In this document: positions 3,475-30,287 of the stretch, piece after piece
Position numbering within the stretch: the first letter of the stretch is position 1
How the letters are laid out: the number at the start of each line of letters is the position of its first letter
DNA from: Streptomyces sp. HUAS ZL42
Lineage (GTDB): Bacteria > Actinomycetota > Actinomycetes > Streptomycetales > Streptomycetaceae
Length of the DNA stretch: 64,000 nt
Reading direction: 5' to 3'
Assembly (NCBI RefSeq): GCF_040782645.1
Contig: NZ_CP160403.1
Location: 5,615,001 to 5,679,000, forward strand
Notes under the pieces: model-generated
Seen by the model: only the letters and a program-made list of their open reading frames with translations
What the model was told of the DNA's origin: nothing
Databases searched by the model: none
Position numbers and translations under genes: made by a program

Positions 3475-4785
3475 ATGACCACGACGGGGGAAGACCAGGC
3501 GACGGCCCGGGGAGGGCCGTGGTGGTGGACCAGGTGGCGCAGTGTGGTGCTGGACGCGACTCTCGCGGTCGCGTCCGCGGTGGAGTGCGCGGTCGAGGGG
3601 GTTCCGTTCGCCCGGGACGCCGGGATTCCGCTCGCCGCGGGGGTGGTGTTCGGACTGCTCGCCGGTTCCGTGTTGCTGATCCGGCGGAAATGGCCGATTG
3701 CCGTCGTGCTCGTGTCGATCGCGATCACGCCCGCCCTGATGGGTTTCCTGATGGGCATCGTGGGTCTGTACACGCTCGCCGCGTCCGAGTTGCCGCGGCG
3801 GATCATCGGTTCGCTGGCGGGGATGTCGCTGGTGGGGACGCTCATCGTGACGTTCGTGCGGGTGCGGCAGGACATGGCGCAGGGGGATCTGCGGCTGGGG
3901 GACTGGTTCATACCGTTCGCTTCGATCACGACGTCGCTCGGGTTGACGGCACCTCCTGTGCTGCTCGGGTTGTACGTGGGGGCGCGGCGCCGGTTGATGG
4001 AGAGTCTGCGGGAGCGTGCGGACAGTCTCGAGCGGGAGTTGATGCTGCTGGCGGAGCGGGCGGAGGAGCGGGCCGAGTGGGCGCGTGGTGAGGAGCGGAC
4101 GCGGATTGCGAGGGAGATGCATGACGTGGTCGCGCATCGGGTGAGCCTCATGGTCGTACATGCGGCTGCTCTTCAGGCCGTGGCGCGGAAGGATCCCGAG
4201 AAGGCTGTGCGGAATGCCGTGTTGGTGGGGGACATGGGGCGGCAGGCGTTGACGGAGTTGCGGGAGATGCTCGGGGTGCTGCGGAGTGGGGAGCAGCGGG
4301 AGCGTTCGGCGTCGCTGCCGTTGGTGGCGGTGGGGGTTGCCGCGGCGGAGGCTGCTTCTCGGCTGGTTGAGGACGAGGGTGGGGCCGAGGGGCCGTGTCT
4401 GTCGGAGTTGGAGGAGTTGGTGGGGCAGTCGGCGGCTGCGGGGATGGTGGTGGATCTGACGGTGGAGGGGGATGCGCGGTCGTATGGGCGGGAGATCGAG
4501 CAGACCGCGTATCGGGTGGTTCAGGAGGCGTTGACGAACGTGCACAAGCATGCGGCGGGGGCGAAGACGCATGTGCGGTTGGCGCATCGGGTGTCGGAGA
4601 TCGCGATGCAGGTGGAGAACGAGCCGCCGCCGGAGGTGTCGTCGGCGTCGTCGGCTCGGTTGCCGTCGGGCGGCAACGGGTTGGTGGGGATGAAGGAGCG
4701 GGTTGCGGGGTTGGGTGGGGTGTTCGTGTCGGGGCCGACGGATGCGGGGGGTTTTCGGGTGTCGGCGGTGATTCCGGCGTCGTAG
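3475..4785 (+). CDS. Orphan two-component sensor histidine kinase (NarL/DesK type)
   Basis: This is a membrane sensor kinase of the HisKA_3 family, 436 residues. The N-terminal ~160 residues hold about four to five hydrophobic helices with almost no extracytoplasmic loop, so it may sense the membrane itself. A coiled coil (about 165-205) leads to TRIAREMHDVVAHRVSLMV with the phospho-accepting His216. The HATPase region has VQEALTNVHKHA (N box) and GGNGLVGMKERV (G box). No response-regulator gene is adjacent; the next gene is on the opposite strand, so its partner lies elsewhere. The start ATG has no good ribosome site but has TAGGCT exactly six bases before it, which suggests a leaderless mRNA. 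The ligand and target are unknown. Confidence 0.9.
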   Translation: MTTTGEDQATARGGPWWWTRWRSVVLDATLAVASAVECAVEGVPFARDAGIPLAAGVVFGLLAGSVLLIRRKWPIAVVLVSIAITPALMGFLMGIVGLYTLAASELPRRIIGSLAGMSLVGTLIVTFVRVRQDMAQGDLRLGDWFIPFASITTSLGLTAPPVLLGLYVGARRRLMESLRERADSLERELMLLAERAEERAEWARGEERTRIAREMHDVVAHRVSLMVVHAAALQAVARKDPEKAVRNAVLVGDMGRQALTELREMLGVLRSGEQRERSASLPLVAVGVAAAEAASRLVEDEGGAEGPCLSELEELVGQSAAAGMVVDLTVEGDARSYGREIEQTAYRVVQEALTNVHKHAAGAKTHVRLAHRVSEIAMQVENEPPPEVSSASSARLPSGGNGLVGMKERVAGLGGVFVSGPTDAGGFRVSAVIPAS

Positions 4786-4819: not shown

Positions 4820-5314
4820 TCAGCCTGCGGTGAGTCGTACGGGTTCGATGCCGGAGACGAGGGCGGCGAGGGCTTGGTCGATGTCGGGGCCGAGGTACCA
4901 GTCGCCGGTGTGGTCGAGGGTGTAGGCGCGGCCTTCGGTGTCGATGGCGAGGAGGCCGTGGGTGTGGGTTTCGGCGCCGAGGGGGCAGAGGTCGGTGTCG
5001 AGGGCGCGACCGAGGTCGCTGAGGGTGCGGGCGAGGTGGAGGCCGTGGAGGGGGTCGAGGTGGAGGGTGGCGGGGGCGACTTGGCGGCCGGGTCCGCTGG
5101 GGGTGATGTGGAGGCCGCCGAATTCGGCCCAGGCTTCGACGGCGGCGGGGAAGACGGTGTGGCGGTGGCCGGCGGGTGAGATGTGGTCGCGGAGGGTGTC
5201 GGCCCAGATCTCGGCCTGTTTGATGTCCCAGCGTCCGGGTTGCCAGCCGGCTTCGCGGAGGGCGGCGTCGACGGGTACGGGGAAGCGGGTGGTGGAGGTG
5301 CGGTCGGTGTGCAT
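4820..5314 (-). CDS. SUKH-3-type immunity-like protein
   Basis: This 164-residue cytosolic protein fits the SUKH-3 family of SMI1/KNR4-like folds, typically immunity proteins against nucleic-acid-attacking toxins. Supporting segments are DAALREAGWQPGRWD, an AVEAWAEFGGLHI stretch, LGAETHTHGLLAIDTEGRAYTLDHTGDWYLG and ALAALVSGIEPVRL. The last two are the usual SUKH-3 ending, where a displayed or monitored value is followed by a short helix. The ATG at 5314 follows AGAGGG closely. It begins 40 bases after the stop of the YwqJ-like deaminase gene on the same strand, so the two form a probable toxin-then-immunity operon. The family call is from motif recognition without a search. The partner toxin could be the neighbouring deaminase or one delivered by another strain. 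Confidence 0.8.
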   Translation of the reverse strand: MHTDRTSTTRFPVPVDAALREAGWQPGRWDIKQAEIWADTLRDHISPAGHRHTVFPAAVEAWAEFGGLHITPSGPGRQVAPATLHLDPLHGLHLARTLSDLGRALDTDLCPLGAETHTHGLLAIDTEGRAYTLDHTGDWYLGPDIDQALAALVSGIEPVRLTAG

Positions 5315-5354
5315 CTGCCCTCTTGGGTGTGTGTTCCTTCGGGGTCCGGTGGGG

Positions 5355-5870
5355 TCAGTCGTCGGTCGCTGTCGGGTCGACGATGCGGACGCCGAAGTGG
5401 TCGCTGAGGGCGGTGCAGGCGCGGCAGGGTGTGGCGAAGCTGCCGTGGAGGGGGTCGCCGTCCTCGCGGATGCGGCGGGCGGTGAGTTTGGCCTGTTTGA
5501 GGGCTCTGCGGGCTTCGCCGTTGGTCATGGGTTTCCGGGCGGCGCGTCTGCTGCGGGCGGCGTCGGTGACCGCGATGTGGCGGGAGATGAGGAGTGCTTC
5601 GGCGCAGCGGCCGGTGAAGCGGTCGCGTTGGGCGCTGGTGAGGGTGTCGAGGAAGTCCTGGACGAGGGGGTGCAGGGCGGGGGGCTGGTCGCCGCGGGCG
5701 GCGGTGCCGGTGAGGGTGGCGCCGCGGACGGAGAGGGCGGCGGCGATGGTGGGGAGTATGCCGTCGCGGCGGTGACGGAGGGTGGGGATGTGGGGGGTTG
5801 TGGTGCTGCTCCAGCCGATGCGGGGGTCGCCGGATCGGCTGTTGTGCGGTCCGGTTTGTGTGGCGTTCAT
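5355..5870 (-). CDS. YwqJ-like nucleic-acid/nucleotide deaminase domain protein
   Basis: This 171-residue protein carries deaminase zinc-site motifs: RCAEALLISRHI, giving C89-A-E91 (the C/H-x-E element), and TPCRACTALSDHFGV, giving C149-x-x-C152. This pair and the helix between them (KPMTNGEARRALKQAKLTA) match YwqJ-family polymorphic-toxin deaminases. The first ~60 residues look disordered and contain no signal peptide or known secretion domain, so it may be cytosolic or exported by an unrecognised route. The open frame extends to 6185, but the ATG at 5870 has GGGAGGGG 9 bases upstream; a second ATG at 5879 is too close to it. SUKH-3 follows 40 bases later. Substrate (DNA, RNA or nucleotide) is not predictable here. 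The divergent SUKH-1 fusion starts about 320 bases upstream. Confidence 0.82.
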   Translation of the reverse strand: MNATQTGPHNSRSGDPRIGWSSTTTPHIPTLRHRRDGILPTIAAALSVRGATLTGTAARGDQPPALHPLVQDFLDTLTSAQRDRFTGRCAEALLISRHIAVTDAARSRRAARKPMTNGEARRALKQAKLTARRIREDGDPLHGSFATPCRACTALSDHFGVRIVDPTATDD

Positions 5871-6190
5871 GATCGTCATCCCCTCCCGAGCATCCCCCCG
5901 GCGGATCCAGGGTGCCAAATCGCGTGGCTGGTGCGGAAGCTGGGGCGGGGCGACACGCCCGCGTTTGGGCGGGCTGTCACGGCGTTGTGACGGCTGGTCA
6001 CGGAAGTGGAGCGCCGGTGACCGGTGTCGTCGTACCGCATAGGCTGTCGGCACCGCGATAGGTGCGGTCAACGCGCGTCGGTGACCGTTGGAGACAGTCG
6101 AATACGGGTCGTGGTGGGGCGAACCGGAAGCTGTGTGCGACCGGTTTGGTCCGCTTCGGGTCGTACAGAGTGCCGCAGGGGGCAACCGCC

Positions 6191-7216
6191 ATGACGACAG
6201 GTCGGCTCGGGCAGCAAGCCGCGCCGCCGAACGCGGCCTATGCCGGGCAGGTCGTGCATTTCCCGGATCCGGTCCGGGCCGCCCGTCACCCGAGAGGGGT
6301 ACGGATGGACGAGCACGGTTACCCCGAGTTCTCGCCGTATGCGCGTGCGGCCGCGGAGATCGCGGAGCCGCCTGAGGGTTTCGGGGTCGACGAGCTGCGG
6401 CTGACGGACTATGTGTCGGCGAACGCGGCGTTGGCGGCGAGTGGGCACGAGTTGTGGGACACGGTGCCGAATGTGGCGACGCCGCACGGCTGGACGTGGC
6501 ATCACGTGGTGGGTACGCGCCGGTTGGAGCTGGTGCCGGTCGAGGTGAAGGCGTTGCTGCGGCATCACGGTGGTGTGGCGACGGCGGCGGTGAATCACGG
6601 CAAGCGGGGTACGCGGCCGTTGCAGGAGACGCGTCCGGCGCATTTCGGTCTGCCGAAGTCGGGTGTGGCGGTGACGGAGCAGCAGGTCCAGGGGGTCGAG
6701 GAGGATCTGGGGTACCGGCTGCCGGGTCCGTACCGCTCGTTCCTGAAGGCGGCGGGTGGCTGCGCTCCCGTCGGGGCCGCGCTGGACGCGGAGTTGGGGC
6801 TGCTGGTCGACCAGCCGTTCTTCACGGTGCGGGACGAGGCGGCGGTCAACGACCTGGTGTACGTGAACAAGTGTCTGCGTGACCATCTGACCAAGGACTA
6901 CCTGGGCGTCGGCTTCGTCCAGGGTGGTCTGCTGGCCGTGAAGGTGAAGGGCGAGCGGCTCGGTTCGGTGTGGTTCTGCACGTACGACGACGCGCGGGAC
7001 GTGGATCCGGCGTGGCCGCCGGCGGAGCGTGTGGAGCGGCTTCTGCTGCCGTGCGGTGAGGACTTCGATGTCTTCCTGTCGCGGCTGGCGGGCAATCCGC
7101 CGGAGTTGGAGACGGTGGCGAACCTGATGGTGGACGGCGGGTTCGCGCGTGCGGTGCCGGTGGCTTCGGAGTCGTCGGGCTCTTCGGTGTCTTCGGCGTT
7201 CTCGGCGGGGGAGTGA
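6191..7216 (+). CDS. WHH-type HNH/EndoVII nuclease-like domain fused to SUKH-1 (SMI1/KNR4)
   Basis: This 341-residue protein appears to be a two-domain fusion. Residues about 40-135 (EHGYPEFSPYARAAAEI ... ANAAL ... GWTWHHVVGTRRLELVPVEV ... RHHGGVA) follow the layout of WHH-type HNH/endonuclease VII toxin domains: W103-H104-H105, LVP at 114-116, H125-H126-G-G. The His that normally follows LVP is Lys120 here, so cleavage may be impaired. Residues about 160-300 (VTEQQVQGVEEDLGYRLPGPYRSFLKAAGG ... SVWFCTYDD ... DVFLSRLAG) are a SUKH-1 domain, a known toxin-neutralising fold. The ATG at 6191 is preceded by AGGGGG with 8 bases between; a TAGGCT element at 6040 could be the -10 box. The downstream deaminase/SUKH-4 gene starts 9 bases after the stop. 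The C-terminal tail is Ser-rich. Confidence 0.82.
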   Translation: MTTGRLGQQAAPPNAAYAGQVVHFPDPVRAARHPRGVRMDEHGYPEFSPYARAAAEIAEPPEGFGVDELRLTDYVSANAALAASGHELWDTVPNVATPHGWTWHHVVGTRRLELVPVEVKALLRHHGGVATAAVNHGKRGTRPLQETRPAHFGLPKSGVAVTEQQVQGVEEDLGYRLPGPYRSFLKAAGGCAPVGAALDAELGLLVDQPFFTVRDEAAVNDLVYVNKCLRDHLTKDYLGVGFVQGGLLAVKVKGERLGSVWFCTYDDARDVDPAWPPAERVERLLLPCGEDFDVFLSRLAGNPPELETVANLMVDGGFARAVPVASESSGSSVSSAFSAGE

Positions 7217-7225
7217 GTTTCGGCG

Positions 7226-10123
7226 ATGGTGACGTTTGCACAGGCGCAGGAGCGCGCGGAAGAGTGGATCAACGGGGATGTTCCGGCGTACCAGCATCGT
7301 GAGGTGCGGGTACGGGAGTTCGAGCTGGGTTTCGTGGTGTGGGGAGAGGACCGTGCGGACGGGCCGCGTTCGGACGGGGGTGGGCAGCGGCTGGTGATCG
7401 CCCGGGACAGCGGGGAGGCCACGTTGTGGCCCGCGCTGCCGGTGGGTGAGGTGATCCGCCGGTACGAGGAGGAGTACGGCGGTCCGGACGGCGGGGCTGA
7501 GCCGGCGCAGGCGCCCGCGGCTCGGGTGGATCTGAACCAGACGTCGTTCTTGTTGTCTCCGCCGGAGTGGTTGCAGGAGGCGGCGGACAAGCTGGGGATT
7601 CCGGATCGGCGGTCCGGTGCCGGGGCGTCGTCGGGGGGCGGTTCGTCGCTTCCCGAGACGCAGGGTGGGGTGCCGGCGGGGGCGGGTTCCGCTGGTGCCG
7701 GTGCGGATTCGGGTGCGCCTGGCGTGCCTGCCGGGGCTACGCCCTGGGCCGGTACGGACACCAATGCGGACGCCGGTGAGGACCGTTCCGTGCCGTTGCC
7801 GGCGACGGTGTTCGCGCCTCAGTTGAGCGATGCCGACGCCGCGCTTCCGCCGGACGCCCAGACGGCGTTGATGGAGGGCGGCAGCCAGCTTCCGCCGACG
7901 GCGGTGGCGCCGGCGATGGACGCGCCGGGCGTGCCGAAGGCGCCGGGTGCGCCGGGTGGTCCGGGTGCGTCAGGGACTTCGGGGGCGCCGGGGACTTCGG
8001 GGGCGCCCGGTGTTCCGGGTGCTGCGGGTGCGCCTGTGCCGGGCGTCCCGCAGGGCAGTGCGCCTCCGCCTCCGCCCGCACCTTCGCCGGGTGCGCGGTC
8101 CTACGGCTATCCGCAGGGTCCGGGTGCTCCGGGTGCTCCGGGTGGGCCCGGTACTCCGCATCCTCCGCACGCGCCGGGTGCGCCGTCGTACGGCTATCCG
8201 CAGGGCCCGGGTGCTCCGGGTGCTCCGGGTGGGCCGGTGGTGTCGCAGGGGAGCACGCCTCCTCCCGCTCCGGGTGCACCGTCGTACGGCTATCCGCAGG
8301 CGCCGGGCGGTCCGGGTGCCGTGCCGGCCGGTGGTCCGCAGGGCACGCCTCCGCCTCCGGCCGGTCCGAACGCGCCGGGGCGGCCGCTCGCGCCGAATGC
8401 CGGGGAGATCGCCGACGCCGCGACCAGCAAGGCGGCTCCGCCGCGTCGTGGGCGGGGTGCGGGTGCGAACCCGCCGCCTCCGCCGGGTGCGCCGGGGGCT
8501 CCGGGCGCGCGCCCGGGAAGTACGCCGCCGCCTCCGCCGTCCGGTCCGGGTGCGCCCGGTACTCCGGCGGGCGGGTATGTGCCGACGCAGCTTGTGTCGG
8601 CACTGAGTCCCGACGGTCCTGGGGGCCCGTCCGGTCCGGGTGCGCCGCAGGGCCCGGGGGCTTCGGGCGCCCCGGGTGCGCCGAACGCGCCTGGCGCGCC
8701 GAATCCGCCTGGTACCCCCGCTCCGCCCGGTGCGCCGAACACGCCCGGTGGTACGCCTCCAGGCGGTGTTCACCATGCCGCCACGATGCTCGCCGACCCG
8801 AGTCGGATGGGCCCGGGCGGGGGCGCTCCGCAGCCTCCGGCCGGCCCGGGTGTGCCGAACGCGCCGGGCGGATCCAACCCGCCGGGCGCGCACGGATCTG
8901 CGGGGGGCGCGTCCGGTGCCGTGCACCATGCGGAGACCGTGCTGGCCGCGCCTTCGGTGGCCGGCCCCGGCGTACCTCCGCCGCCGCCTCCCGCCGCACC
9001 CGGATTCCCGGGCGCACCCGGTGCTCCTGGCGCGCCCGGGGTGGCTGCGGGCGCCCCGCAGCCGATGCCGCCGGGTGCCGTGCCGCCGCCGGGTCAGCCG
9101 GGGCCGGGGCTGCAGCCGCCGGCGTACGGCTATCCGCAGCAGGGTGGCCGGCCGACGGTCGGACCGGGCTATCAGGCCGTGTTGCGCTACCGCGCCCAGG
9201 ACGGTTCCGAGCAGCAGCTGATCCGGCGTTCGGCGCCGGGGACGCCGCACCCGGAGTGGCAGATCTTCCACGAGTTGCGGGCCATGAACGTGCCGCCGGA
9301 CCAGGTGCTGGAGCTGCACACCGAGCTGGAGTCGTGCGAGCTGCCGGGTGCGTACTGTGCGCGGATGATCCGGGAGCAGTGGCCGAAGGCGCGGATCACG
9401 AGCATCGCGCCGTACGGCACGGACCACGCGAGCCGGCAGCAGGGGATGCGGCAACTGCTGGCGCACCAGGGCGAGTTGCACCAGGTGGCCGACGGTCCCG
9501 CGCGTCCCGCGCCGGTGCGGGCGCCGTTGCCGCAGGTGCAGCAGGCGCCGCCGATTCCGCCGGAGGGGATCGGGCAGGAGCTGGCGGCGGCGTTCGGGCC
9601 GGGGGTGTTCCGGTTCGAGCAGGCCGCGGTGTCCCGGCAGGGTGTGCCGCCGATCGTGGCGCACACCCTGGTGGTGGCGGGGCTGCCGGCGGACATGGGT
9701 CCGTTCTTCTGGGCGCAGGCTCAGCCGGGGCGGCCGGTGCCGACGCTGGCGGAGCTGGCGCAGGAGCGCGGGGTGCAGCCGGCCTCGGACGCGGGCTCGT
9801 ACCTCGTCATGGGCAGCGACTTCGGCAAGGCGATCTGTGTGCAGTACGGGACGGCGAACATCGTCGCCGTGCCCGTGGAGGCGGGGCCGGGCGGGGCGCC
9901 CGTACCGCCGCAGTTCGTGAACACGGGTCTGCCGGAGTTCGCTCGCTGCCTGGCGCTGCTCGGGCGGATGTGGCGGCTGCGGTTCGGCCTGAACCAGGAG
10001 CAGGCGGGCCGCTGGACCGTCGATTTCCAGGCCCAGTTGGCCTCCCTCGATCCGGCGGCGCTCGGTTCGCCGGAGAGCTGGTGGTCGGTGCTGCTGGAGC
10101 AGATGTGGGACGGACTGCTGTGA
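7226..10123 (+). CDS. Imm35/YrhB-like – Pro/Gly-rich linker – deaminase – SUKH-4 fusion protein
   Basis: This 965-residue protein has four recognisable parts. Residues 1-90 (TFAQAQERAEEWI ... RLVIARDSGEATLWPALPVGEVIRRYEEEYG) resemble the Imm35/YrhB small immunity fold. Residues about 225-640 are a collagen-like Pro/Gly/Ala linker with repeated SYGYPQGPGAPGAPG units. Residues about 645-760 look like a nucleic-acid deaminase of the XOO_2897 type: H698-T-E700, then C704-ELPGAY-C711 and a following helix. Residues about 770-965 (GIGQELAAAFGPGVFRFE ... FARCLALLGRMWRLRFGLNQEQAG) match SUKH-4. It has no signal peptide or secretion domain. Combining toxin-like and immunity-like domains in one chain suggests a sensor, decoy or self-inhibited effector rather than an exported toxin; that is inference. 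A strong terminator follows. Confidence 0.82.
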   Translation: MVTFAQAQERAEEWINGDVPAYQHREVRVREFELGFVVWGEDRADGPRSDGGGQRLVIARDSGEATLWPALPVGEVIRRYEEEYGGPDGGAEPAQAPAARVDLNQTSFLLSPPEWLQEAADKLGIPDRRSGAGASSGGGSSLPETQGGVPAGAGSAGAGADSGAPGVPAGATPWAGTDTNADAGEDRSVPLPATVFAPQLSDADAALPPDAQTALMEGGSQLPPTAVAPAMDAPGVPKAPGAPGGPGASGTSGAPGTSGAPGVPGAAGAPVPGVPQGSAPPPPPAPSPGARSYGYPQGPGAPGAPGGPGTPHPPHAPGAPSYGYPQGPGAPGAPGGPVVSQGSTPPPAPGAPSYGYPQAPGGPGAVPAGGPQGTPPPPAGPNAPGRPLAPNAGEIADAATSKAAPPRRGRGAGANPPPPPGAPGAPGARPGSTPPPPPSGPGAPGTPAGGYVPTQLVSALSPDGPGGPSGPGAPQGPGASGAPGAPNAPGAPNPPGTPAPPGAPNTPGGTPPGGVHHAATMLADPSRMGPGGGAPQPPAGPGVPNAPGGSNPPGAHGSAGGASGAVHHAETVLAAPSVAGPGVPPPPPPAAPGFPGAPGAPGAPGVAAGAPQPMPPGAVPPPGQPGPGLQPPAYGYPQQGGRPTVGPGYQAVLRYRAQDGSEQQLIRRSAPGTPHPEWQIFHELRAMNVPPDQVLELHTELESCELPGAYCARMIREQWPKARITSIAPYGTDHASRQQGMRQLLAHQGELHQVADGPARPAPVRAPLPQVQQAPPIPPEGIGQELAAAFGPGVFRFEQAAVSRQGVPPIVAHTLVVAGLPADMGPFFWAQAQPGRPVPTLAELAQERGVQPASDAGSYLVMGSDFGKAICVQYGTANIVAVPVEAGPGGAPVPPQFVNTGLPEFARCLALLGRMWRLRFGLNQEQAGRWTVDFQAQLASLDPAALGSPESWWSVLLEQMWDGLL
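7920..9150 (+). repeat. Pro/Gly/Ala-rich coding repeat inside the deaminase/SUKH-4 fusion
   Basis: The stretch encodes a low-complexity chain of GAPGAPG-type triplets with four spaced YGYPQ motifs (near 8100, 8190, 8285 and 9125). DNA runs such as GGTGCTCCGGGTGCTCCGGG recur, so length variation by slippage between strains is likely. The region probably acts as a long flexible or collagen-like spacer. Confidence 0.75.
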
Positions 10124-10161: not shown

Positions 10162-10199
10162 GGCCGGGCCCGGTTGGACCACCGGGCCCGGCCCTTTTC
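10162..10199 (+). terminator. Strong intrinsic terminator after the SUKH-4 fusion gene
   Basis: GGCCGGGCCCGGT (10162-10174) pairs perfectly with ACCGGGCCCGGCC (10181-10193) around a 6-base loop and is followed by CTTTTCT. It ends the 6191-10123 operon. Confidence 0.88.
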
Positions 10200-10326
10200 T
10201 GTGCGCGTCCTGGCCGGGCCTGTGATCTCTGCGCGGAGTGTCGCGTTATGAACATTTCCGTCCGATACATCAAGATGTGCGCCAAATCATCGATTTCGCG
10301 TGCGTTCGGCGGAGAGGGGTTCCAGG

Positions 10327-11199
10327 ATGAGCAGCGCAGCGGTCTCGCCTCATGGCTTCGTGGCCGTACGGGGGCGTGGCTACCGTCCCGAACAGGTCGA
10401 CGCTCATGCCGACGCCCTCTCCCGGGACCGGGACGCCGCCTGGGAACGCGCCGCGCGACTCACCGTGCTCGCCAGGGACATGGAGGCGGAGGCGGAACGG
10501 TGGCGGGAGGCCGTGGCGCAGCTCGCTCCGCAGACGTACGAGTCGCTGGGGGAGCGGGCGCGGCGGCTGTTCCAGCTCGCGGGGGAGGAAGCGGCGCTCG
10601 TGCGCGAAGGCGCGCGGGGCGCGGCGCAGGAGCACCTCGCGCAGGCCGAGTCGTGTGCCCTCGGCGTGCGTGGGGCGGCGCAGGAGTACGCGGACGAACT
10701 CCGCGCGGACGCCGAGGAACGCGCCCGCAGGCGGTTGCTCGCGGCGCGCGCCGAGGCCGACGACATCCGCGTCACCACCCGGCGCGAAGTGAAGGAGAGC
10801 CGCACCGAGGCGCTCGCCGCACTGCGCGAGATGCGGCAGCGCACCACCGCGATGCTCGCCGAGCAGGAGAAGGAGCACGCCGAGCGCTGGGCCGAGGCCG
10901 AACGGGAGGAGGCCGAGCGGGGGGCTGCGCTGGACGCACACCACGTGCACCTGGTGGCGCGCGCCGAGGCGGCACTGTCCGACGCGAAGCAGGCGTTCGC
11001 GGAGGCGGAGGAGTCGGCGCGGCGGTGGCAGGAGGAGGCGCGGGTGCGGGCCGCGGAGCTGCTCGCGGAGGCGCGGGTGCGGGAGGAGGCGATCGCGGGG
11101 GAGACGGAGCGGGTGCTGCGGGAGCACGGGGAGCGGTGGGACGACGTGCGGGCGCAGATGGATTGTGTGCGGGACAGTCTGAGTGCCTTGACGGAGTGA
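10327..11199 (+). CDS. DivIVA-like/FilP-like coiled-coil protein (often annotated cellulose-binding protein)
   Basis: This 290-residue protein is almost all charged helix. The N-terminus HGFVAVRGRGYRPEQVDAHADAL (about 8-30) resembles the short DivIVA membrane/polarity motif. The rest is a continuous Ala/Glu/Arg coiled coil (about 35-285) like the actinobacterial polar-growth proteins Scy and FilP, so a cytoskeletal or tip-complex role is plausible but not shown. The ATG at 10327 has GGAGAGG upstream; an earlier in-frame start at 10300 has none. The last codons (LTE then stop) lie inside the first unit of a tandem GGAGTGAC repeat that runs on for ~180 bases, so changes in repeat number could alter the C-terminus. 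It is a single gene, with a terminator ahead and a convergent symporter gene behind. Confidence 0.85.
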   Translation: MSSAAVSPHGFVAVRGRGYRPEQVDAHADALSRDRDAAWERAARLTVLARDMEAEAERWREAVAQLAPQTYESLGERARRLFQLAGEEAALVREGARGAAQEHLAQAESCALGVRGAAQEYADELRADAEERARRRLLAARAEADDIRVTTRREVKESRTEALAALREMRQRTTAMLAEQEKEHAERWAEAEREEAERGAALDAHHVHLVARAEAALSDAKQAFAEAEESARRWQEEARVRAAELLAEARVREEAIAGETERVLREHGERWDDVRAQMDCVRDSLSALTE

Positions 11200-25529: not shown

Positions 25530-25595
25530 GGCAGGTCCTTGGTCGAGGTGGGTGGTGAGGTGAGGTGTGTGCGCTGGGTCAATGAGAGCAGAAGC

Positions 25596-25648
25596 TGTGA
25601 ACCGAGTCAACACGATTCACAGGGAGTGCCATGTACACGATTGTGAAT
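25596..25648. promoter_or_regulatory. TGTGAA half-sites (26-bp inverted repeat plus a third site) upstream of the methylase-like gene
   Basis: TGTGAA (25596-25601) and TTCACA (25616-25621) are perfect inverted half-sites with a 14-base centre that is itself partly symmetric. A third half-site, TTGTGAAT, is at 25641-25648. The core GTGAAC recurs as an 18-bp-spaced array inside the downstream gene. It is a probable operator for the divergent pair; the protein that binds is unknown, though the HTH protein encoded here is a natural candidate. Confidence 0.5.
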
Positions 25649-25731
25649 GGGTAGATCTTGCGTGCATCGGTATGCTCGGCGCCACACCGGTGAGCTGGAC
25701 CGCCACACCGGCGACGAGGGGAGCTGGGCGG

Positions 25732-27942
25732 GTGCAGGACAACGCGACAGAAGTGACCGCCGCCGGAATCGCGCGGCTCGCCGGCGTCGGCCGGGCCGCC
25801 GTGAGCAACTGGCGACGCCGTCACGCCGACTTCCCCAAGCCGGTCGGCGGCACCGAGACCAGCCCCTCCTTCGCGCTCGCCGAAGTCGAGGCCTGGCTGC
25901 GCCGCCAGGGCAAACTCGCCGAAGTCCCGCTGCGTGAACGCGTCTGGCAGCAACTCGCCGGCCACCCCGACGGGCCGGTCACCGCCCTGACGCACGCCGG
26001 TTGTGCACTGCTGCTCATCCATGACCGCTCCACGGTCTGGCTGGACGTGAGCGCGGGCTCCGACGAGCGGCTCGCCGCGATGCTGCCGGGGGCGCTGGAG
26101 CAGGTGATCGCGCCGCGTTTCGGTGTTCACAAGCGGTCTGGTGTGAACGGGGCGAAGGGTGTGAACGCCCCACGCCCTGTGAACACCTCGCGCGCCGCGA
26201 ACACGCCTCAGGCTGTGAATTCGCCCTCCGCCGTGAACGCGCGCTCCGCCGCGAACACGACTACATCCGTGAACACGACTACATCCGTGAACAAGGCCAC
26301 CCCCGTGAACAGCACCCCGGCCGTTCACATCCCCACCGGCCCCGAACTCCTCCCCTCCGTCCCCCTCCTGCGCGGCACCGCGGAGTTGGCCGCGGAGCTC
26401 GGCGCCCGCCAGACCTTCGAGTTCCTGATCGGCCGGCATCTCGACGCCAACCCGCGCCAGTACACGCTCACCCCCGCCGAGCTCGCCCGCCTCATGGCCG
26501 ACCTCGCCGGACCCGCCCGCAGCGTCCTCGACCCGGCCTGCGGCACCGGCGCCCTGCTGCGCGCCGTCGCCTCCCGCCCCGACCAGGAGCTGTACGCCCA
26601 GGACAGCGCCCCCGACCTCGCCGCGCTCACCGCGCTGCGGCTCGCCCTGCACTCCTCGGCCGCCGTGCGCGGCGCCGCCGGTGACACCCTCCGCGCCGAC
26701 GCGTACCCGGAGCTGCGCGCCGACGCCGTCCTGTGCCATCCGCCGTTCAACGAGCGCAACTGGGGCCACGACGAACTCGCCTACGACGCCCGCTGGGAGT
26801 ACGGCTTCCCGGCGCGCACCGAGTCCGAGCTGGCCTGGGTGCAGCACGCGCTCGCGCGCCTGAAGGACGGCGGCACCGCCGTCCTGCTGATGCCGCCCGC
26901 CTCCGCCTCCCGCCGCTCGGGTCGCCGCATCCGCGCCGACCTGCTGCGCCGCGGCGCGCTGCGCGCCGTCGTCGCCCTGCCGGTCGGGGCGGCACCGCCG
27001 TACAACATCCCCCTGCATCTGTGGGTGCTGCGCCGCCCCGACCGGGCGCCCGCGCAGCCGGAGGTGCTGCTCGCCGACACGGGGCAGTTCGCCACCGAGG
27101 GGCGCGGGGGACCCGACTGGCGGGCCGTGCGGGACGCCGTGCTGGACGCCTGGCGCGCCTTCGACCGGCACGGGACCTGCGAGGAACAGCCGGGCCTGGC
27201 CCGTTGCGTGCCCGTCATCGAACTCCTCGACGACGACGTGGACCTCGCCCCGGCCCGCCACCTCCCACCCCCGGCGGCGGCCGACGGCGCCGGGGCGCTC
27301 ACGGCCGTACGCGAGCGACTCGGCGAGACCCTGCGCCTGACCGCCGACCTCACCCCGACGCCCGCCGACGCCGGGCAGCCCGCGCGCTGGCCGCTCACCA
27401 CCATCGGTGAACTCGCCCGCGGGGGCGCGCTGGTGATGCGCACGGGCGGGATCGGCGGCCACGCGCGCGTGTCCGTCCTCACCGACCACGACGTCCTCGC
27501 CGGAGCAACTCCCTCCGGGACGTTGCCCGAGAGCGATGAGGAGGCCGTGCTCACCGAGCCGGGCGACGTCGTCGTGCCGGTGCTCGGCGGTGGCGCGGTG
27601 GCGCGTGTGATCGACGCCGCGACGGAGGGCGCCGCCCTGGGGCGCAACCTCGTGCTCCTGCGCCCCGATCCCGCGGCGCTCGACCCGTGGTTCCTCGCCG
27701 GGTTCCTGCGCGGCACCGCCAACAACCGCCAGGCCAGCAGCTACGCGTCCACCGCAACCCGTCTCGATGTGCGGCGTCTGCAGCTGCCCCGGCTTCCGCT
27801 GGACGAACAACGGCGCTACGGCGCGCGTTTCCGCGCGCTCGACGAGTTCGAGCGGGCGCTCCGTCACGCCGGCCGGCTGGGGGAACAGCTCGTGCGCGGG
27901 ATGTACGACGGCCTGACGGACGGGACGGTCACGCCCGACTGA
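25732..27942 (+). CDS. HTH – N6-methylase-like (HsdM) – HsdS-like fusion with hexapeptide repeat linker; possibly catalytically altered
   Basis: This 736-residue protein starts with an HTH (TAAGIARLAGVGRAAVSNWRRRHADFPKPVG ... ALAEVEAWLRRQGK, about 6-65). A linker of twelve hexapeptides of the form VN-x4 spans residues 132-203. The HsdM-like methylase core has TFEFLIGRHLD, ARSVLDPACGTGALLRAV (SAM motif I, D267-P-A-C-G-T-G), and, where motif IV N/D-PP-F/Y is expected, AVLCHPPFNERNWG: H336 replaces Asn/Asp. The C-terminal ~180 residues (WPLTTIGELARGGALVMR ... NNRQASSYASTATRLDVRRLQLPRLPLDEQRRYGARF) look like an HsdS target-recognition half. No restriction gene is nearby. The GTG at 25732 follows GAGGGGAG. 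With an altered motif IV it may act as a DNA-binding regulator rather than a methylase; this is inference. Confidence 0.88.
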   Translation: MQDNATEVTAAGIARLAGVGRAAVSNWRRRHADFPKPVGGTETSPSFALAEVEAWLRRQGKLAEVPLRERVWQQLAGHPDGPVTALTHAGCALLLIHDRSTVWLDVSAGSDERLAAMLPGALEQVIAPRFGVHKRSGVNGAKGVNAPRPVNTSRAANTPQAVNSPSAVNARSAANTTTSVNTTTSVNKATPVNSTPAVHIPTGPELLPSVPLLRGTAELAAELGARQTFEFLIGRHLDANPRQYTLTPAELARLMADLAGPARSVLDPACGTGALLRAVASRPDQELYAQDSAPDLAALTALRLALHSSAAVRGAAGDTLRADAYPELRADAVLCHPPFNERNWGHDELAYDARWEYGFPARTESELAWVQHALARLKDGGTAVLLMPPASASRRSGRRIRADLLRRGALRAVVALPVGAAPPYNIPLHLWVLRRPDRAPAQPEVLLADTGQFATEGRGGPDWRAVRDAVLDAWRAFDRHGTCEEQPGLARCVPVIELLDDDVDLAPARHLPPPAAADGAGALTAVRERLGETLRLTADLTPTPADAGQPARWPLTTIGELARGGALVMRTGGIGGHARVSVLTDHDVLAGATPSGTLPESDEEAVLTEPGDVVVPVLGGGAVARVIDAATEGAALGRNLVLLRPDPAALDPWFLAGFLRGTANNRQASSYASTATRLDVRRLQLPRLPLDEQRRYGARFRALDEFERALRHAGRLGEQLVRGMYDGLTDGTVTPD
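26125..26340 (+). repeat. Twelve 18-bp coding repeats with GTGAAC core inside the methylase-like gene
   Basis: There are exactly twelve in-frame 18-bp units. Units 2, 3, 4, 7, 9, 10 and 11 start GTGAAC, unit 6 GTGAAT, units 5 and 8 GCGAAC. Units 1 and 12 start GTTCAC, the reverse complement. Only the first six bases of each unit are conserved; the other twelve vary widely in sequence. The core equals the half-sites in the gene's promoter region (25596-25648). Confidence 0.9.
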
Positions 27943-28119
27943 GCCGGAATCACGGCCTCCGCCCGCTCCGCCCGCGACCTGCGGCGTCGTACGAAGAGAT
28001 CGGTGCGACAACGGTTCGGTACATCGGGGGGCCAGTTGTCCGTGGAGGCCTATACGCTCGAACTCCGTCACTCTTACGTCCAGTCCGTCCCCATCGGCTT
28101 CACCGGTCCAGGAGCAGTC

Positions 28120-28764
28120 ATGTACGGCCACGGCGCGGCGCCGCCCCCTCGCAGCGCGGCAACCGTCATCTCATTGCGGGTGCTGCTCGCCGCCGCCGGC
28201 ATCCTCTCGTGCGGCATGCTCGCCTGCGTTCCGCTGTTCCGGGTCGCCGTCCTGCGCGGACGAGGGATCGACTGGGTGCTGGCGTGGGCGAGCCTGCCGC
28301 TGTCCATCGCCTGCTTCGCGGTGGTCGGCTCGCTGCCGGAGAGCGACCCCAGGACCGACGTCGCCATGTCCCTGGTCCTGCTGCTCGGGTTGTTCAGCGG
28401 CATCCACTTCCTGGTCACGGACATCCGGTACTACCAGCAGCGGCGGTTCGCGGGCTACGCGCCGCCCAACGCCACGACCGTGGGGTCCCAGGCGCCGTAC
28501 GGCTACCCCCAGCCCGCGTCGCCGTACCCGGCCGCACCCGTGCCGCAGCCTCCCGCGCACCACACGCCGATATCCCAGGCTCCTACGGCCGCCTCGTCCT
28601 CCCTGCCGCACGACGCCGCGCCGCCCGGGCCGGTACCGCCGCCCCCGCCGCAGCGTCCCGCGCCCGCCCGCATCGACCAGGTGCGTGCCGAGCTGGACGA
28701 GCTCAGTGACTACCTGCGCCAGCACGACGGAAAGCAGGACGGCGACCGCGAGGGCGGAAGGTGA
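28120..28764 (+). CDS. Membrane protein with Pro-rich tail, coupled to a Ser/Thr kinase
   Basis: This is a 214-residue protein of no recognised family. The N-terminal part has three hydrophobic helices: VISLRVLLAAAGILSCGMLACVPLF, WVLAWASLPLSIACFAVVG and VAMSLVLLLGLFSGIHFLVTD. A cytosolic tail rich in Pro, Tyr and Ala (YAPPNATTVGSQAPYGYPQPA ...) ends in a short acidic/basic helix (RIDQVRAELDELSDYLRQHDGK). The ATG at 28120 follows AGGAG by 6 bases; a longer frame back to 28003 has no ribosome site. A TACGCT -10-like box lies at 28053. The stop overlaps the kinase GTG by GTGA, so the two proteins are made together, and this one may be a membrane anchor or substrate of that kinase. That link is inferred only from coupling. 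Confidence 0.82.
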   Translation: MYGHGAAPPPRSAATVISLRVLLAAAGILSCGMLACVPLFRVAVLRGRGIDWVLAWASLPLSIACFAVVGSLPESDPRTDVAMSLVLLLGLFSGIHFLVTDIRYYQQRRFAGYAPPNATTVGSQAPYGYPQPASPYPAAPVPQPPAHHTPISQAPTAASSSLPHDAAPPGPVPPPPPQRPAPARIDQVRAELDELSDYLRQHDGKQDGDREGGR

Positions 28765-30287
28765 CCGGGGCGACAGGACGCGTCGTCGCCGACCGCTACG
28801 AACTGGCCACGCTCATCGGGCAGGGCGGCATGGGCCAGGTCTGGACGGCCTACGACCGCCGCCTCGACCGGCGCGTGGCCGTGAAACTGCTGCGCCCCGA
28901 CAAGGTCGCCGGAGCGGAGGCCGACGAGCTGCGCCGCCGCTTCATGCGCGAGTGCCGGGTGACCGCGCAGGTCGACCACCCGGGGCTGGTCACCGTGCAC
29001 GACGCGGGCAGTGAGGGCGAGGAGCTGTTCCTCGTCATGCAGTACGTCGACGGCGCCGACCTCTCCGACCACCTCGCCGAGCACGACCCGTACCCCTGGC
29101 AGTGGGCGGTGGCGGTCGCCGCGCAACTGTGCGCCGTGCTCAGCGCCGTGCACGCCGTGCCGATCGTCCACCGCGACCTCAAACCGCGCAACGTGATGGT
29201 GAAGCAGGACGGCACGGTCACCGTCCTCGACCTCGGCGTCGCCTCCGTCATGGACGCCGACACCACCCGCCTCACCCACACCGGCACACCCATCGGCTCG
29301 CCCGCCTACATGGCGCCCGAGCAGGCGATGGGCGGCGCGGTCGGCCCGTACACCGACCTGTACGCACTCGGCGTACTCCTGCACGAACTCCTCAGCGGCG
29401 ACGTGCCGTTCGCGGGCTCGACGGCGCTCGGCGTGCTGCACCGGCATCTGTACGAGCCGCCGCTGCCCGTGCGCCGTATCCGCCCGGAGGTGCCCGAGGT
29501 GCTCGAGACGCTCGTCCTGCGCCTGCTCGCCAAGGACCCGCAGCACCGGCCCGCCTCCGCACAGGAGGTGTACGAGGACCTGGCGCGGCTCCTGCCCGCG
29601 CGCGGGACGCCCACCGGGTCGCCCCTCGACCCCACGCGCCCCTTCCTGCGCCCGCACGCGCCCTGGCCGGACCGTGCCCGTACGCCCGCGCCCCAGCCCG
29701 CCCCGGTCGCGTCCGTCGCCGAGAAGCCGGACGTGGCCCGCGCCGTCGACGAGGTCAAGCGCCTCCTCGGCGAGGGCCGCATCACCCAGGCCGTCGACAT
29801 CCTCGGCGCGATCCTGCCCGCCGCCGCCGAACAGCACGGCGAACACTCCCCGGTGGTCCGCACGCTGCGCAAGCAGTACGCGGCCACACTCATGGACGAC
29901 GGCCAGTACCGGCGCGCGCTGCCCGAACTGCGCCGCCTCGCCGACGAACGCGCCGCCGAGGCGGGCCAGGCCGACCCCCAGTCCCTGCGCTTCCGCTACG
30001 ACGCCGCCCAGTGCCTGGAGCAACTCGGCGAACCGGCGGCGGCGCTCGCCGAGTACCGCGCGCTGCTGCCGTACTACGAGAACCAGTACGTCGCCGGCGA
30101 CCCCGAACTCGCCCACGACGTCCGCCGTCGCATCGGTCATCTGCTGCTGGCCCTCGGCGACCGCGCCGCCGCCCACGACACGCTCGTCCGGCTGCTGCAC
30201 GACGTGGAGCGGCTGCAGGGCCCCGGCCACCCGCTCGCCGCGGACGTCCGCAGAACCCTGCAGTGGCTGGGGCAGGTGCGCGGCTGA
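28761..30287 (+). CDS. Ser/Thr protein kinase (PknB-like) with C-terminal TPR-like region, no membrane helix
   Basis: This 508-residue Hanks-type kinase has a nucleotide loop GQGGMGQVW (about 18-26), catalytic Lys42 in RVAVKLL, IVHRDLKPRNVMV with Asp139, DLG (Asp157, in place of DFG) and YMAPEQAMGG. The kinase domain ends near residue 275. A Pro-rich linker follows. From about 325 there is a helical TPR-like region (VDEVKRLLGEGRITQAVDILGAILPAAAEQHGEHSPVVRTL ... LRFRYDAAQCLEQLGEPAAALAEYRALLPYYENQYVAGD). There is no transmembrane helix or PASTA repeat, so it is cytosolic and may depend on the coupled membrane protein for location. The GTG start overlaps the upstream stop by GTGA. Substrates are unknown. 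Confidence 0.93.
   Translation: MTGATGRVVADRYELATLIGQGGMGQVWTAYDRRLDRRVAVKLLRPDKVAGAEADELRRRFMRECRVTAQVDHPGLVTVHDAGSEGEELFLVMQYVDGADLSDHLAEHDPYPWQWAVAVAAQLCAVLSAVHAVPIVHRDLKPRNVMVKQDGTVTVLDLGVASVMDADTTRLTHTGTPIGSPAYMAPEQAMGGAVGPYTDLYALGVLLHELLSGDVPFAGSTALGVLHRHLYEPPLPVRRIRPEVPEVLETLVLRLLAKDPQHRPASAQEVYEDLARLLPARGTPTGSPLDPTRPFLRPHAPWPDRARTPAPQPAPVASVAEKPDVARAVDEVKRLLGEGRITQAVDILGAILPAAAEQHGEHSPVVRTLRKQYAATLMDDGQYRRALPELRRLADERAAEAGQADPQSLRFRYDAAQCLEQLGEPAAALAEYRALLPYYENQYVAGDPELAHDVRRRIGHLLLALGDRAAAHDTLVRLLHDVERLQGPGHPLAADVRRTLQWLGQVRG

Follow-up and report, generated by a model that had tools for sequence, protein, structure and literature searches.

Polymorphic toxin systems combine YwqJ-type, XOO_2897-type and WHH-type toxins with SUKH-type partners, and fusions of SUKH domains to toxins have been noted among them 'on occasions' (PMC3482391, excerpt). 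The same families meet at positions 4820–10123 of a 64,000-nucleotide stretch of the chromosome of Streptomyces sp. HUAS ZL42 (contig NZ_CP160403.1, 5,615,001–5,679,000; this whole stretch is called the window below). Here, four genes form two divergent arms: on the minus strand a YwqJ-type deaminase gene followed by a SUKH-3 gene, and on the plus strand a gene for a WHH–SUKH-1 fusion followed by one for a protein of 965 amino acids (aa) that contains an XOO_2897-type deaminase and a SUKH-4 domain. Two of the three toxin–immunity pairs are single-polypeptide fusions (WHH with SUKH-1, XOO_2897 with SUKH-4). Compared with polymorphic toxin systems (PMC3482391, excerpt), the locus has no trafficking domain, occupies a fixed core site and shows no exchange of toxin tips; it also brings three pairs together, two of them cis-fused, and carries one changed nuclease residue.

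On balance, we favour the view that the locus encodes domesticated, cytoplasmic deaminases gated by SUKH domains, together with a disarmed nuclease partner. Three polymorphic-toxin/immunity pairs would have been taken over by the host lineage and would now act inside the cell. YwqJ would be restrained in trans by the SUKH-3 protein from the same arm, and the XOO_2897 domain in cis by its fused SUKH-4 domain, where a long flexible linker carrying docking motifs ends. The WHH–SUKH-1 gene directly precedes this one in what looks like a single operon, and its product would most likely act as a scaffold or sensor that does not cut. Freeing or shifting the SUKH domains would trigger deamination of a nucleotide, RNA or DNA in normal physiology. 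Cytoplasmic action, inhibition by SUKH domains, deaminase catalysis, inactivity of the nuclease and co-transcription of the plus-strand arm are the elements that we infer.

The single domains and their toxin–immunity pairings are already known, and many such proteins carry the NCBI names SUKH-4 family, SMI1/KNR4 family, HNH endonuclease or deaminase (best 120 matches listed for each). What appears to be new, as far as our searches reach, is that three pairs sit together at a fixed core position throughout a large genus, with both deaminase motifs intact, one nuclease altered at a conserved residue and a linker that bears motifs. Toxin deaminases are weapons and have been proposed as the source of eukaryotic editing enzymes; to our knowledge, no bacterial housekeeping use of them has been documented. 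The presence of the locus in a large, industrially important genus, with active sites intact and putative inhibitors built in, makes its substrate, its release trigger and the route from weapon to core gene tractable questions in model streptomycetes, and self-inhibited deaminases would be of interest to builders of base editors. A literature search for domesticated SUKH or deaminase proteins found none, the founding studies of SUKH proteins (Zhang 2011) and of how deaminases evolved (Iyer 2011) lying outside that search and possibly mentioning single proteins; searches for SUKH/deaminase, SMI1 or YwqJ in Streptomyces, or for A-to-I editing in Streptomyces coelicolor, gave no lead.

Composition of the locus

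The features of the locus, with Pfam scores and the corresponding cut-offs, are:

4820–5314, minus strand: SUKH-3 protein, 164 aa (PF14433, E 3e-59; 199.8 bits against a cut-off of 23)
5355–5870, minus strand: YwqJ-type deaminase, 171 aa, without export domain (PF14431, E 4e-25; 89.2 against 25.9 bits)
5871–6190: intergenic region between the divergent arms; an AGGCTGT block in it is invariant across 21 aligned loci
6191–7216, plus strand: fusion of a WHH nuclease-like domain and SUKH-1, 341 aa (Pfam; start by conservation)
6548–6550, plus strand: Lys codon where the WHH motif has its middle conserved His (alignment with WHH domains of plasmid, Rhs and genus g5 toxins)
7226–10123, plus strand: 965-aa protein, beginning 9 bases past the WHH–SUKH-1 stop codon
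7226–7495, plus strand: N-terminal domain of the 965-aa protein, ~90 aa (N-domain), conserved in 20/20 loci
7523–9145, plus strand: disordered-looking Pro/Gly/Ala linker, ~540 aa (composition and motif count)
9161–9463, plus strand: XOO_2897-type deaminase domain (PF14440, E 2e-36; 124.4 against 27 bits)
9575–10102, plus strand: SUKH-4 domain (PF14435, E 4e-46; 157.9 against 25.5 bits)
10162–10193, plus strand: intrinsic terminator-like site after the plus-strand pair (13-bp stem, 6-nt loop, CTTTTC tail)

An earlier note on this DNA had described three SUKH types, two deaminases and a WHH nuclease within 5.3 kb, and this description holds: all six domains (SUKH-3, YwqJ, WHH, SUKH-1, XOO_2897 and SUKH-4) score above their curated Pfam cut-offs. 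By family assignment, the locus is a set of three cognate toxin–immunity pair types. Chance or wrong-frame reading frames are ruled out by Pfam scores far over the cut-offs and by conservation of the proteins in 20/20 loci, which we chose from WHH–SUKH-1 matches for long contigs and a spread of identities. In all 20, the histidine kinase (HK), SUKH-3, YwqJ, WHH–SUKH-1, XOO_2897–SUKH-4 and DivIVA-like genes keep the same order and strands. The same six-gene arrangement recurs in 64 of the 65 loci long enough for this comparison among the best 80 of 502 confirmed stretches; these 80, all Streptomyces by title, lean toward near relatives because they are the best-scoring ones. The sole exception (L155) contains 202 N and an apparent misassembly at the YwqJ and SUKH-3 genes.

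That this is not an exported toxin set had also been suggested, and the domain searches agree. A Pfam search of the locus proteins found no WXG, LXG or similar export domain. The N-terminal trafficking domain of a polymorphic toxin system is missing by the same measure, and there is no variable toxin tip, since domains, order and strands are the same throughout (20/20 and 64/65 loci). Could the toxins nevertheless be secreted via an unrecognised signal and attack neighbouring cells? In other settings, each of the three toxin families is exported (PMC3482391, excerpt; plasmid relatives). However, the locus proteins have no export domain, whereas the plasmid relatives carry WXG100_2; a fused inhibitor would travel along with its toxin; and toxin tips are not exchanged between strains. 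We consider export extremely improbable. Searches of the PDB by sequence (three proteins and the XOO_2897–SUKH-4 end of the fourth) and of NCBIfam with the locus proteins gave no lead.

Distribution, inheritance and selective constraint

The survey across Streptomyces that the earlier note had called for revealed genus-wide conservation. Among 151 genomes of the genus, WHH–SUKH-1 was found in 142, YwqJ in 143 and the XOO_2897–SUKH-4 end in 146, although a few of the matches counted, in fragmented genomes, are weak or partial (e.g. YwqJ in G012; XOO_2897–SUKH-4 in G128, G143, G007 and G097). All three are present in 66/66 genomes with <=10 contigs, a number counted by hand from tables with rounded contig numbers; the genome-wide survey was limited to these three, and SUKH-3 was read at individual loci. 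Where one of the three is missing, the listed contig number ranges from 60 to 1140; all three are missing from two genomes, of 640 and 780 contigs. The nine genomes without WHH–SUKH-1 consist of 240–1020 contigs, and 7/9 have the XOO_2897–SUKH-4 end (one partial). In three of the genomes without WHH–SUKH-1, this end lies <400 bases from a contig start, which suggests assembly breaks. We reject patchy acquisition within the genus, as the absences fall in fragmented assemblies in which the XOO_2897–SUKH-4 end is often present. The source genome holds one match for each toxin query (YwqJ, WHH–SUKH-1, XOO_2897–SUKH-4).

Across the family, YwqJ is present in 61/61 genomes and 16/16 genera. WHH–SUKH-1 has a match in 57/61 genomes and 15/16 genera, three of these matches being distant copies in genus g5, and XOO_2897–SUKH-4 has one in 58/61 genomes, the four g5 genomes among these showing no more than weak partial matches. 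The plus-strand arm is absent from 3/3 genomes of genus g2, one being a single contig, and a close orthologue of it is absent from 4/4 genomes of g5. In class-wide samples, WHH–SUKH-1 matched 36/295 genomes (33 of its own genus, three weakly elsewhere) and XOO_2897–SUKH-4 matched 31/246 (26 of the genus, five outside it, four of the latter full-length at 36–40% identity); the misses in these samples are partly listed, so members of the genus may be among the genomes without a match. Taking the class and family samples together, close orthologues are therefore seen only in Streptomycetaceae.

The two arms need not travel together. In the Streptomyces genome G010, a single contig carries YwqJ/SUKH-3 at 8.92 Mb but the plus-strand arm at 4.22 Mb, providing a natural test of arm independence. 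In other genera, the arms are ~5–7 kb apart in three loci read in one piece and ~27 kb apart in a fourth, and in g2 and g5 the YwqJ–SUKH-3 pair is found close to PrsA and GlmU, with the plus-strand arm missing (3/3 loci read). The arms are therefore separately conserved units, and we reject the idea of one fixed two-armed unit on the strength of the G010 split and the wider spacing in other genera. Judged by distribution, the YwqJ unit would be older within the family than the plus-strand arm. This difference between the arms goes beyond the earlier note, as does the probable disarming of the nuclease described below. We offer only as a tentative possibility the fuller account that two resident SUKH-gated deaminases, derived from weapons and vertically inherited, edit the Streptomycetaceae's own nucleic acids or nucleotides in growth or development. 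The YwqJ unit would then be the older, and the XOO_2897 unit would have joined later, bringing the linker hub and the disarmed nuclease; on this account the locus would be the core bacterial parallel to the capture of toxin deaminases that has been proposed for eukaryotes.

The locus lies in the core chromosome beside housekeeping genes, as had been proposed: PrsA, GlmU and tRNA-Gln are found upstream, and Mfd and enolase, identified by eye from translation, downstream, on a single contig of 9.87 Mb. This setting bears on anti-phage abortive infection, the role suggested as an example in the earlier note, in which infection would free the deaminases to edit nucleic acid or drain nucleotides and thereby stop the phage. 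Deaminases are used in bacterial defence, and intracellular toxin-type enzymes with neutralising partners would suit such a system. However, defence loci are usually patchy, and abortive infection predicts a patchy, mobile distribution and kinship to defence genes; neither is seen. Instead, the locus occupies a fixed core site by PrsA, GlmU and (by eye) Mfd, it appears to be vertically inherited, and its plus-strand arm is under housekeeping-like constraint. PADLOC (2023) returned no match for the four locus proteins, where absence from the library proves nothing, and a search of 50,697 phage records with WHH–SUKH-1 (threshold E 1e-3) found no match. Overall, a role in abortive infection seems quite unlikely to us.

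A stable cellular role, by contrast, had been suggested as well and is borne out by the family- and genus-wide, syntenic distribution and by strong purifying selection in the plus-strand arm. Ratios of nonsynonymous to synonymous substitution (dN/dS; Nei–Gojobori, window against eight near loci, medians) rise in the order XOO_2897 deaminase (0.044), PrsA (0.049), SUKH-4 (0.103), SUKH-1 (0.119), N-domain (0.125), GlmU (0.125), WHH (0.187), HK (0.214), DivIVA-like protein (0.339), YwqJ (0.362) and SUKH-3 (0.377). No domain of the locus is more tightly constrained than XOO_2897, which is comparable to PrsA (PRPP synthase). Selection on the plus-strand proteins resembles that on housekeeping genes; selection on the YwqJ/SUKH-3 pair does not. 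Self-recognition, the other role raised earlier, predicts variable alleles, but the plus-strand domains are constrained like PrsA and GlmU, which argues against self-recognition or an arms race for the plus-strand arm. For the YwqJ/SUKH-3 arm, the faster evolution makes this case weaker; here, the argument against self-recognition comes from the pair being present with its motif intact, not from its rate.

The faster evolution of YwqJ/SUKH-3 would also fit an immunity reservoir, in which the SUKH domains guard against competitors' toxins, with the locus's own toxin domains serving as decoys or surviving as remnants. Such polyimmunity loci have been described (PMC3482391, excerpt), and the presence of three SUKH types at one site is reminiscent of them. 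In addition, modules of these kinds are found downstream of a WHH toxin in polymorphic-toxin loci of genus g5. However, immunity proteins under attack should diversify, and SUKH-1 and SUKH-4 are constrained like GlmU; moreover, decoys would not need invariant zinc motifs, and the source genome contains no second match to the three toxin queries. We therefore think a polyimmunity locus very unlikely.

Deaminase motifs, the altered nuclease and the linker

The YwqJ family is characterized by the motifs C-x-E and P-C-x-x-C. In 20/20 loci, these residues are intact as C-[AP]-E and P-C-x-x-C, and both motifs were found in 74 of 76 further loci, the remaining two being cut at a contig edge or lying in a gapped assembly. 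The plasmid relative has the same residues, and both score and motif place the locus protein in PF14431. Its presumed partner SUKH-3 adjoins YwqJ in 20/20 loci, in the split genome G010, on a plasmid and in 3/3 loci read from genera without the second arm.

For the XOO_2897 family, the motif is H-x-E and two Cys, encoded here at 9248–9250 (His of His-Pro-Glu), 9335–9337 and 9356–9358 (the two Cys). HPE and both Cys are kept in 20/20 loci and in 70/70 further ones, with a single locus reading EPC instead of ESC and retaining the Cys; plasmid relatives share the H-x-E and two-Cys residues, and membership of PF14440 follows from score as well as motif. Structure prediction gives a confident joint fold of the XOO_2897 deaminase and SUKH-4. 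Foldseek gave matches to DddA-type and APOBEC-type deaminases, at fold level only and with weak E-values. These enzymes also use His-x-Glu and two Cys and have a deaminase fold that the locus domain may share, but belong to another family.

The WHH domain matches Pfam PF14414 (E 4e-15) and also Colicin-DNase PF12639 (E 1e-9), and the SUKH-1 domain matches PF09346 (E 2e-10; 41.7 against 25.4 bits). The protein starts at ATG 6191, aligned in 21/21 sequences with a near-invariant CAGGGGGC just ahead of it, rather than at the upstream GTG 6062. An AlphaFold model of the fusion (pLDDT 73.5) has structural matches to SMI1/KNR4 (3d5p, E 3e-4) and to the RhsP WHH toxin (8bd1, E 3e-3). The motif of the Tox-WHH family is given as WHH, L, H, HxG (PMC3482391, Table 2, excerpt). 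Core copies read W-H-H, L-V-P-V-E-V-K and H-H-G-G: WHH and L[VI]P are present in 80/80 loci, and HHGG in 80/80 and in 19 of 20 further loci, with HHAG in the remaining one. The middle conserved His of the motif, however, is Lys in 80/80 and 20/20 loci, and likewise in the fused WHH copies of genus g5 and of G017. It is kept in RhsP, Sagittula, Paraburkholderia, G357, G296 (other actinobacterial copies) and the g5 toxins; a distant copy (L063) has His at this position, but W-A-H replaces W-H-H. The locus protein thus has the WHH, L and HxG residues of Tox-WHH and lacks the middle His, and on these residues we class it as WHH-derived, not as an active WHH nuclease.

One known relative for comparison is RhsP/VP1517 (PDB 8bd1, a toxin–immunity pair), which shares fold and motif with the locus nuclease but keeps the middle His and is delivered by a type VI secretion system (PMC12724144, excerpt). 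Mutating its WHH or H1354 abolishes toxicity (PMC7170923, excerpt). By sequence counting, the Lys of the locus corresponds to His1345 of RhsP/VP1517, which is not among the mutated residues WHH/H1354. By analogy with colicin-type HNH enzymes, the middle His would presumably be a metal ligand. We therefore regard the nuclease as likely, and not more than likely, to be disarmed by the His-to-Lys change.

The N-terminal part of the 965-aa protein has an hhalign probability of 32% (E 5e-4) to Imm35/YrhB. Pfam Imm35 gave no match to the window's N-domain even at E 10 and, with the N-domain of one homologue only, reached E 0.14 and 12.8 bits against a cut-off of 27.5; with this score below the cut-off, we dropped Imm35 membership, the likeness being a weak one. 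The linker that follows is 354–658 aa long across 18 sequences, consists of Pro, Gly and Ala to 62%, and keeps the short motifs ATVFAP, PTQLVS and AATMLA. The pattern T-x-[LF]-[AV] occurs 65 times in the 18 linkers, compared with a mean of 2.8 and a maximum of 10 in 1000 shuffles; because the sequences are related, these are not 18 independent tests. The 18 linkers come from those of 21 sequences with N-domain and deaminase in a single open frame, the two lying outside one open frame in 3/20 loci. From its motifs, the linker looks like a docking hub and not a passive spacer.

But do the deaminases have to be enzymes at all? The locus could encode a non-catalytic regulator or scaffold, in which toxin folds bind nucleic acid or proteins, SUKH domains serve as interaction modules, and catalysis is vestigial or irrelevant. 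The long linker with conserved docking-like motifs would suit such a role, and the WHH domain is probably disarmed yet conserved (dN/dS 0.187). Furthermore, sporadic paralogues of the 965-aa protein (L052–L058, 34–37% identical) resemble it in joining N-domain, deaminase fold and SUKH-4 in one protein, but have a short linker and have lost both Cys in 7/7 aligned sequences. Unlike these paralogues, the core copies have kept the zinc ligands of the two deaminases wherever a complete sequence was read, and XOO_2897 is the very domain under the strongest constraint. We thus judge a purely non-catalytic role unlikely, though worth keeping in mind, and continue to favour domesticated, SUKH-gated deaminases.

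Relatives elsewhere and neighbouring genes

Where could the parts have come from? On Streptomyces plasmids, a YwqJ toxin adjoins SUKH-3 (Streptomyces sp. NBC_01175) and an XOO_2897 toxin adjoins SUKH-4 (NBC_01174), the toxin and immunity families of the locus in separate, adjacent genes. These toxins, of 559 and 510 aa, have N-terminal WXG100_2 export domains, whereas the locus deaminases lack them and are chromosomal. Another plasmid region of NBC_01174 (L102, 4467–5324) encodes SUKH-4 and XOO_2897 fused in reverse order, with HPE and Cys intact; the cis-fusion therefore arose more than once or was shuffled. WHH-type HNH endonuclease genes adjoin an SMI1/KNR4 gene in Sagittula (near VgrG) and in Paraburkholderia (near a filamentous haemagglutinin gene). 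In three g5 genomes (L060–L062), the gene of a WHH-tipped polymorphic toxin has behind it genes for a SUKH protein, a WHH–SUKH-1 fusion and a YwqJ relative; in L061, the one tested further, the array also holds a SUKH-3 relative with an N-domain-like region. It is plausible that such weapon arrays picture the kind of cassette from which the core locus could have been drawn. The WHH-tipped toxin of L060 also has a papain-fold glutamine deamidase domain.

Of the Cys-less paralogues, all three Streptomyces copies read (L054, 3720–7406; L057, 4032–7347; L058, 6320–9939) are encoded directly downstream of an ATPase-like protein of 649–767 aa with a 'PHPxIGGR'-like start; two of these three proteins match AAA weakly. 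Such a combination of ATPase and pseudo-deaminase is possibly a conflict system. There are further second copies, such as one of XOO_2897–SUKH-4 in G010 (58%); the Cys comparison covers the seven aligned paralogues.

Within the divergent intergenic region, TAGGCT at 6040–6045 resembles a Streptomyces vegetative -10 hexamer. At the other end of the plus-strand arm, we call the site at 10162–10193 terminator-like because of its stem length (13 bp), as the region has 4 such sites against a shuffle mean of 2.4.

Next to the minus-strand arm lies the HK gene (3475–4785), presumably the orthologue of S. coelicolor SCO3119, judging by gene order; on that assumption, the four locus genes would correspond approximately to SCO3115–SCO3118. 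SCO3119 has been tabulated as an orphan kinase (PMC9739842, excerpt) and named as a possible AtrA target (PMC13170358, excerpt). A literature search for SCO3115–SCO3120 of S. coelicolor found only SCO3119, the histidine kinase, named. Further along the window (25567–30287), a type I-like N6 DNA methylase (Pfam; PADLOC MTase_I) is accompanied by a kinase-like gene (PADLOC PD-T4-6/mad6-like); a defence role of this pair is uncertain, given that Streptomyces commonly has serine/threonine kinases. Finally, the coiled-coil gene at 10300–11199 is DivIVA-like by a weak Pfam match (E 0.025); it keeps its position after the terminator-like site and evolves fast (dN/dS 0.34).

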